Position numbers and translations under genes: made by a program. The notes under the pieces are model-generated. The model had not been told where the DNA came from, ran no database searches, and was given only the letters and a program-made list of their open reading frames with translations. From the IMG/VR virus record IMGVR_UViG_3300037321_000063, positions 1 to 64,000 of that record: DNA of 64,000 bases; one strand, written 5' to 3'. Below, in pieces: positions 32,750-35,380 of the stretch. Origin of the DNA: a virus. Position 1 is the first letter of the stretch. The number at the start of each line of letters is the position of its first letter.

Positions 32750-33842
32750 TTATTTTCAAAAATATGCACCGGTAATACCCGAAGATGTAGAAATGGTTGA
32801 GGGTGTTGGTGGTAAATTATTTCCAAAACATTTAATAGATTGGCAAAAGTATCATTCACCTATTCGCAAATTTCAAATTCAGGCTAAGAGTAGAAAAGAA
32901 TTTGCTACATTTAAAGATAAGTACAATAAACGTAGTAGGTATTTAAACACACCAAATTTAAAGCGCGCGCACATAGAGACTAAATGGTCTTTGGCTATGA
33001 TAGAGGAATGGAAAAAATGTCGTGATGATATCCATTATTTTGCGCGCGAATATTGTGCAATCGTACATGTAGATCACGGAACGATGAAGATAAATCCTAG
33101 AGAGTTTCAGGATGATATGTTGGACGTTATGACCAACAATCGATTTAGCCAATTTCTATTATCAAGACAATTAGGTAAAACTACAGTTGTTGCCGTATTC
33201 ATTGCCCATTACATCGTATTCAATCGTGATAAAAATGTCGCATGTTTAGCACATAAATCCAAAATGGCGGCTGAGATACTACAACGAATTAAAAAGGTAA
33301 TCGAATTTTTACCAGACTTCCTACAACCCGGTATTGATGAATGGAACAAAGGTAACGTTAAATTCGATAATGGGTGTCAAGTTGGTGCATTTGCATCTAC
33401 TGATGGTGGTGTTCGTGGTGAATCAATCGCGATGCTTTATGTTGACGAGTGTGCGTTTGTTGCGGGATTTGAGGATTTTTGGCGGGGCTCCTGGCCGGTT
33501 ATTTCGTCCGGTCGAAAATCAAAAGTAATACTGACTTCTACACCAAATGGAATGAATCATTATTACACAAGATGGAAAGCCGCAACATCTGGTAAAAGTA
33601 GCTTTGTACCATACTCAACAATCTGGAATGATGTTCACGATAGGTTATATGATGAAAATGATGAATACGATGGTGGTGATTATTGGAAGGGTGTACAAAT
33701 TAATGCATCAACCGCCGAAGATTTTCGACAAGAACACGAATGTTTATGGGGTAACACAAAGATAGATATATTACACAATGGGATAAATAGATCAGTAACT
33801 ATGGAGGAATTATGGAATATATACCATACACCTACCGAGTAA
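32742..33842 (+). CDS. 17: Large terminase gp17, N part fused to N-intein, 366 aa
   Basis: Residues 1-333 are the ATPase part of T4 gp17: Walker A SRQLGKTT (141-148), Walker [10 protein letters not shown] with D235/E236, and [10 protein letters not shown] as the coupling motif. Residues 334-366 are not terminase. They begin with Cys in [11 protein letters not shown], the block A of inteins, run through a VTMEELW helix and stop at 33840-33842. The break falls between E333 and the point where T4 continues AFEGTSGT. The remainder of intein and nuclease domain is encoded in another frame from 33812. Splicing in trans would give a 604-residue terminase, close to T4's 610. Confidence 0.9.
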
Positions 33843-35380
33843 AGTTTATTCCAACTGGCGAATATTACTATGGCAAAACCCAAAGTATAGAAACTAAGAA
33901 TTTGGCTGTAGATACTAGAAGGAAAAATGGGTCTTACGATAATATGAATGTCGGTAGAGTGTGTTCAGATGAAACTAAATCCAAAATGTCTAAAAGTAAA
34001 AAAGGTCTATGTGCTAATTTATACAAAATAGACTTATCACACTTAGGAGATATGTACCTAACCCACATAAACGACTTTGAAGAGTATCAATCAAAAAATG
34101 GTAAAGTATTAACAAAATCGCGCCAATTTTCTAATTGGTATCAATTAACGCATAGACCAGATATGACGGCGGCTGGAATATGGATGAATATCGGTAAGTG
34201 TTTAAATAGAGGATCTTTTGCGCCATTACCTAAAGATAGACCAGATATAAAAATAAAAACTTTAGATGGATATAAATCTTTCGATGATATTGTAAAAGTA
34301 GATCATGATGGGTATTTACATTTTCTATTCGAAGATGATACCGAAATAAAATGTAGTAAAGAACACATATTTATAATAGTGGTTAATGGTTTAAAAATTA
34401 ACTTAGAAGCGATAAATGTAAAAGTTGGTGATAGTGTACCGTCTATAGATGGTAGTAAAACCATAACTTCAATTAGTTATATAGAAGAAAAAGTTACACT
34501 ATATGATATTAGGGGTGTTGATGGAGGTAACAAATTTTTAGCTAATGGAATTGAAACCCATAATTGTGCGTTTTTGGGTACGTCCGGTACATTAATAAAC
34601 GGACATAAATTAACTCTATTATCGGCGGCTGAACCAATATTCGAAGACGAAGATAAGTTATTTAAGCAATTCTTTGAACCGGTTCAGGATCATAAATATG
34701 TTCTAACGGTGGATAGTGGTCAAGGTAAAAATCAGGATTATTCCGCATTTTCAATTTTTGATGTTACTAGTTATCCATATGAACAAGTTGCTCGATATAG
34801 AAACAATAAATTAAGTTATATGCTTTATCCATCTGTGATCATGAAGTACGCAACATTGTATAATATGTCGTGGGTGTTAATAGAGCTAAACGATATCGGA
34901 TATTCGGTGGCTGGCGAACTGTACACGCACCTAGAGTACGAAAATGTAATATGTGAGTCAATGGACGACTTAGGTATGAAACAGACTAAGCGTTCGAAAG
35001 CGGTGGGTTGTGTGACACTAAAGGATTTAATCGAAAAAGATTTTTTAGTTGTCAATGATGAAGACACTATAAATGAATTATATTCATTCATTGAGGTTAG
35101 AAATTCTTGGCAAGCTGACCCCGATAGCGAAGACCCACATGACGATATGGTTATGACATTGGTAATATTTGCATACTTAACCACATGGACACAATTTGAA
35201 GATTATACGGATAATGAAAATCGTGTTGGTGCTGATGTGTTTAAAACTGAAATTGAAGAAAACTTAGACAAGTATTCACCATTCGCAATGTTAAGTGATG
35301 GTGTTGAAGATGAACATGGACTGTTGGAAGATGAAGATGCGTTCCAAGATGGTGATATTATTTGGAATCAGATAGGTTAA
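33812..35380 (+). CDS. 17: Endonuclease remnant + C-intein + C part of large terminase, 522 aa
   Basis: It starts at an ATG with the ribosome site GGAGGAATT, overlapping the previous frame by 31 bp. Residues 1-144 are a GIY-YIG-like start ([17 protein letters not shown]) with a NUMOD3 motif ([14 protein letters not shown]) only about 30 residues later, so the catalytic half seems lost. Residues 145-251 are the rest of an intein: [11 protein letters not shown], block B CSKEH, VKVGDSV, block F VTLYDIRG and the end NGIETHN. C252 begins the terminase again ([10 protein letters not shown]), with nuclease acidic residues in [13 protein letters not shown] and PHDDMVMTL. Everything before C252 should be released with the intein. 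Confidence 0.88.

Follow-up and report, generated by a model that had tools for sequence, protein, structure and literature searches.

The large terminase gene (terL) in the stretch analyzed here, the 64,000 nucleotides at positions 1 to 64,000 of the IMG/VR virus record IMGVR_UViG_3300037321_000063 (the window), very probably encodes a T4-like gp17 as two overlapping genes, the products of which would be joined by protein trans-splicing via a class-1 intein that belongs to the AceL-TerL/Cat family and is split at an atypical site. The closest known system with this two-gene design is that of the Aeromonas phage PX29, and a nearly identical allele lacking the insert is found in another IMG/VR contig. 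In the window, the homing endonuclease that accompanies the intein has presumably lost its activity.

Organization of the split terL gene

The gp17-like terL gene in the window is broken by an insert of 824 bp located at 33741-34564. A reading of the sequence alone had proposed that the N-terminal part ends at E333 and is followed by a Cys-led, 33-residue N-intein and a stop codon, and that a second frame, preceded by a ribosome site, supplies block B (CSKEH), block F (VTLYDIRG), the end GIETHN, and a C-terminal part beginning with Cys. The ORF coordinates and translations were re-read, and all of these ORFs, junctions, and motifs were found in their places (Table 1). The translation of ORF1 shows the N-extein ending in RQEHE, with the last codon closing at base 33740, immediately before the Cys of the N-intein. 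The C-extein opens with CAFLGTSGT, its Cys+1 being encoded by TGT at 34565-34567. The block G junction is ETHN/C, and Cys1, His-Asn, Cys+1, and all the catalytic motifs of an intein are present.

Table 1. Features of the split terL locus (window coordinates).
Feature	Coordinates	Strand	Evidence or remarks
ORF1	32742-33842	+	366 aa; gp17 ATPase half with the N-intein at its end, then TAA
N-extein of the large terminase (ATPase half, 333 aa)	32742-33740	+	Pfam Terminase_6N 1.1e-38; 99% identity to the uninterrupted L012 terL
N-intein, 33 aa (Cys1, block A only), and stop codon	33741-33842 (residues 33741-33839, then TAA)	+	Direct reading
Shine-Dalgarno GGAGG of ORF2	33803-33807	+	Within N-intein codons (MEEL) of ORF1; 4-nt spacer to ATG 33812
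ORF1/ORF2 overlap, 31 nt, -1 frame	33812-33842	+	ORF coordinates; same length in PX29
ORF2	33812-35380	+	522 aa; endonuclease remnant, C-intein, and gp17 C half, in that order
Degenerate GIY-YIG/NUMOD3 homing endonuclease remnant (142 residues), joined in frame to the start of the C-intein	33812-34237	+	Pfam NUMOD3, alignments
C-intein, about 109 aa, blocks B, F, and G	34238-34564	+	PDB 6dsl_B by sequence and fold; dN/dS
C-extein of the large terminase (nuclease half, 271 aa)	34565-35380	+	Pfam Terminase_6C 2.7e-16; matches L012 from 34567

The spacer between the Shine-Dalgarno sequence and the start codon of ORF2 is rather short, which counts against the two-gene trans-splicing reading. Equivalent GGAGG/GAGGA sites were found in PX29, Serratia phage 92A1, and Vibrio phage EniLVp02. 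The neighbors of terL follow the T4 order, with ORFs at the gp15, gp16, gp18, and gp19 positions, the portal protein at 37558, and the major head protein at 42455. Directly past the major head protein gene, on the opposite strand (44142-45857), there is a gene for a 571-aa HNH/homing-endonuclease-like protein (PHROG 3339, 1.5e-124; PHROG 559, 'HNH endonuclease'), another homing element beside an essential gene. The window also carries tRNA-Thr(tgt), tRNA-Ser(tga), and tRNA-Asn(gtt) genes at 59518-60634, the first two overlapping by 2 bases.

Split terL genes in other phages and the reality of the two frames

The 31-nt overlap between gp17A and gp17B of PX29 (GU396103) has the frame relation seen for ORF1 and ORF2. 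The GenBank notes describe gp17A as 'contains putative N-intein' and gp17B as 'contains putative GIY-YIG endonuclease and C-intein'. The same kind of gp17 split was found in the isolate phages AsFcp_1, AsFcp_2, and AsFcp_4, with an arrangement resembling that of PX29, as well as in Serratia phage 92A1, Providencia phage PSTRCR_127, and EniLVp02. In 92A1 and PSTRCR_127 there are three ORFs (N half, GIY-YIG gene, and C half), and in EniLVp02 there are two, with no nuclease. In these three phages the next ORF overlaps the N-half gene by 32 nt and is thus in the other relative frame (+1). Judging from these genomes, three-gene and nuclease-free forms of terL occur in related Straboviridae. The three-ORF layout, with a nuclease gene between the terL halves, is also present in several IMG/VR contigs, and other contigs of the family have different endonucleases at this place (DUF559/MTES_1575, Vsr-like). 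In IMG/VR the fused GIY-YIG form was seen, beyond the window, only in PX29; scans of it with the PX29 and Serratia nucleases detected no further GIY-YIG-in-terL loci than PX29 itself.

A programmed -1 frameshift in the overlap could generate a single long protein capable of cis-splicing, and both frames are indeed open from 33791 to 33842. However, no slippery heptamer (X XXY YYZ) is found in the overlap region, a good ribosome site lies ahead of ORF2, and the relatives with 32-nt overlaps are in the other relative frame, two of them with the nuclease as a third gene, so that shifting is not conserved. The comparison argues for separate translation of the second ORF as the element common to the split terL relatives and, since that is so, we regard frameshifting as highly unlikely.

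Even less credence can be given to a sequencing or assembly indel as the cause of the split, in which case the insert would be a common cis-splicing intein housing a homing endonuclease. The metagenomic origin of the record, the offset of -1 between the frames, and the existence of a contiguous intein in the family (L095, see below) would all fit such an error. Nonetheless, PX29 shows the same pair of genes with an overlap of identical length (31 nt), which makes a frame-restoring indel very unlikely; the AsFcp phages are similar, and three more isolates have 32-nt overlaps. Moreover, ORF2 starts, behind GGAGG, exactly where the GIY-YIG sequence starts (MEYIPYTY), as in the free-standing enzyme of another viral contig (L003). 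The split had been taken as real in the sequence-only reading, and the isolate genomes bear this out.

Identity of the intein

Among solved structures, the best match of the C-intein by sequence was PDB 6dsl chain B (CatC, a consensus atypical split intein), with E=1.6e-11 for the single sequence and E=5.8e-31 for the family profile. The same entry ranked first in Foldseek (E=4.7e-08, TMt 0.75) with a structural model of ORF2 residues 1-263, which is confident mainly across the intein part. The 33-aa N-intein alone, too short and divergent, gave no significant match to a solved structure, but it can be aligned with the N-inteins of PX29, Serratia, Providencia, and EniLVp02 and with the N end of the contiguous intein L095. 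Its length is typical of the family, lying between the 25 aa of AceL-TerL and the 37 aa of GOS-TerL (PMC11766414).

The intein precedes the motif (C/V/A)xFxG(T/S) in a phage large terminase, its break is at the position characteristic of the family, after block A, and each half has its own start, an arrangement conserved in PX29. Together with the likeness to CatC, these features support the assignment of the window intein, by sequence and model, to the atypically split TerL inteins of the AceL-TerL/Cat family, as had been proposed. It had also been suggested that this type is known from phage terminases of metagenomes; the type holds, but not the confinement to metagenomes, as the isolate phages listed above carry the same kind of split. 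Family membership rests on 6dsl, and the AceL-TerL row in our intein alignment is an illustration only.

In the IMG/VR relative L095 the same intein is found in one contiguous frame (...CLGGATVVDVLNTKTGLVEKISLKELYRENKKYKILTPSGYQ...). This relative, modeled in place of the joined N and C parts of the window intein, was predicted as a complete HINT domain (pLDDT 92.5) with a fold that matches the gp41-1, VidaL, and Cat inteins. The break in the window maps to the short loop between the ELYRE helix and the KILTP strand of L095.

Related inteins that look atypically split were observed at two places outside the terL nuclease junction: in an AAA+/Clp-like ATPase (GDPGC/.../CGKTAIIEG; L131, 3944-4543 with the upstream ORF 3639-3932) and near the Walker-A region of another terminase (L002, 494-1663). 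Intein-like HINT domains of a different family lie within a conserved viral protein of ~910 aa (MKGTLFSADFVKDSNGDLRLLELNTDTGF...) in L104, L109, L115, L117-L121, and L123; they end in NGILTHN before K, not C/S/T.

Empty site, extein junction, and selection

The IMG/VR contig 3300037320_000060 (L012) is 94.2% identical to the window upstream of the insert and 95.9% downstream, and its terL is one uninterrupted ORF of 604 aa. The alignments meet at 33740/34567, leaving unaligned two bases of the junction codon, which is GTT in L012 and TGT in the window. Joining the window exteins, for which a product of ~604 residues had been anticipated, gave a computed length of 604 aa; this agreement with a natural intein-free allele indicates that the split layout is not due to chance. 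The predicted spliced terminase and that of L012 share 599 of 604 residues. The five differences (window to L012) are N3S, Q45E, G317D, C334V, and V379I, and the only one at the junction is residue 334, the +1 nucleophile Cys in the window and Val in L012. A second empty/filled pair is formed by Aeh1 (QEH-LCRFMGTSG) and PX29 (QEH-CCRFMGTSG), in which again the +1 Cys is found only in the intein-bearing allele. The insertion point is QEHE/C in the window and EniLVp02, and one codon upstream, QEH/C, in PX29, Serratia, and Providencia; the offset may reflect two adjacent insertion points or boundary drift.

The synonymous divergence between the window and L012 is 0.067 in gp16, 0.079 in gp17N, and 0.019 in gp17C, and 0.15-0.34 in the neighbors (window 28740-38565). 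Such a dip over gp16-gp17 is as expected if the terL region around the intein site had been exchanged recently. A virus more distant from the window than L012, L001, also bears the intein; it is the closest such relative, and its sequence is truncated. Over 90 shared codons, the C-inteins of the window and L001 showed dN 0.121 and dS 1.473, and the C-exteins dN 0.087 and dS 2.63; since these dS values are near saturation, the dN/dS of about 0.08 for the C-intein is approximate. The low dN relative to dS indicates that the C-intein is maintained under purifying selection.

Phage terL introns exist, that of ICP1 being RNA-spliced (PMC10448857), and the break separates the ATPase domain from the nuclease domain, but no Rfam intron family was detected across the window, intact intein splice motifs are encoded at the insert ends, the +1 Cys is restricted to the intein-bearing allele in both pairs, and the C-intein is under purifying selection, all of which makes a self-splicing RNA intron, or halves acting as separate unspliced subunits, extremely improbable.

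The endonuclease remnant

The nuclease remnant that had been noticed next to the intein is present and, in addition, is fused in frame to the C-intein in one protein. It matches Pfam NUMOD3 (PF07460, 8.2e-07) and thus has the NUMOD3 DNA-binding motif, but no Pfam GIY-YIG domain was detected in it, versus SegE_GIY-YIG at 5.8e-9 in PX29; besides NUMOD3, only the first strands of the GIY-YIG fold are left, and the catalytic core, with its Glu/Arg/Asn region, is missing. A TIGR03098 match to this region (E=0.0065) was dismissed as chance. In the alignment with PX29, about 92 residues between YYG and the NUMOD3 region are absent, among them a segment conserved in intact enzymes (ICESKVNKRV in PX29, KWESKVNRRL in Serratia), and this ESKVN-type segment is expected to hold the catalytic Glu. 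The window nuclease is, by this comparison, presumably dead. The deletion preserves the reading frame, without which the terL C half would be lost. The L003 enzyme (3995-4687) is an intact, free-standing GIY-YIG/NUMOD3 protein whose start is very like that of the remnant, in a viral contig that looks unrelated.

The leftover nuclease region and the C-intein resemble their PX29 counterparts to a like degree (46% and 43%), so either the loss of the nuclease was recent or the rest is still useful. We find a fuller scenario along these lines rather doubtful, if conceivable: NUMOD3 and the remnant downstream of it would be retained for a function such as DNA binding or terL autoregulation; the dual-coding overlap, comprising the N-intein helix and the ribosome site, would couple translation of the terminase halves; and, more broadly, the atypical splits of TerL would go back to an endonuclease gene that carried its own start and entered an L095-like contiguous intein at the loop after block A.

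Proposed pathway and significance

In the proposed pathway, a single mRNA would serve the translation of both ORFs. ORF1 would yield the ATPase half with the 33-residue N-intein, and ORF2, translated from its own ribosome site within the N-intein codons, would yield the dead nuclease remnant, the C-intein, and the terminase nuclease half. The short N-intein would then dock into the C-intein, rebuilding the HINT fold, a step that the remnant at the N end of the C-intein could slow. Formation of the Cys1 thioester, attack by Cys+1 (transesterification), and cyclization of the terminal Asn would release the 604-aa terminase, and in the excised C-intein the nuclease remnant would still be attached N-terminally, where the loop is split. 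The element would have been mobile formerly through its endonuclease, and the PX29 copy may still be. The window element, whose nuclease has no catalytic core, is probably immobile now, and it would be retained because terL is essential.

A split intein with a near-isogenic intein-free allele makes its cost, its gain or loss, and its extein requirements directly testable in one essential gene. The window, PX29, the three-gene phages, the nuclease-free EniLVp02, and the contiguous L095 form a graded series that illustrates how an intein could become split close to its N terminus through an endonuclease gene. In addition, the window adds a pair with a short N-intein to the protein-engineering set.

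Comparison with known systems

The two-gene design was already known, as it is annotated in the PX29 GenBank record, and atypical TerL inteins have been biochemically characterized. New here are the fused version with a dead nuclease, the empty allele in a near-isogenic setting, and a set in which contiguous, two-gene, and three-gene forms stand side by side. In the openly readable literature that was covered, no discussion of the fused GIY-YIG/C-intein form was found. Dassa et al. reportedly described, in 2009, split inteins in fractured genes, the halves being separated by a homing endonuclease gene. One of these inteins, AceL NrdHF, resembles the window in that the host gene is broken into two ORFs around a GIY-YIG endonuclease (PMC7891396). 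It differs in having the usual split site and belonging to class 3, while the endonuclease of the window forms one protein with the C-intein and has lost its catalytic core.

The AceL-TerL, GOS-TerL, and Cat (6dsl) inteins share with the window the host gene, the split after block A, a short N-intein of 25-37 aa, and the homology and fold of the C-intein. The AceL and Cat C-inteins have no nuclease remnant, and splicing has been demonstrated for them, whereas that of the window intein is predicted. The closest system is PX29 gp17A/gp17B, with the same gene, a 33-aa N-intein, the same overlap, and a GIY-YIG/NUMOD3 region fused in frame before the C-intein. Unlike the window, PX29 retains a complete SegE-type GIY-YIG catalytic domain, its C-intein is only 43% identical, its insertion is one codon upstream, and its ORF2 starts with GTG.
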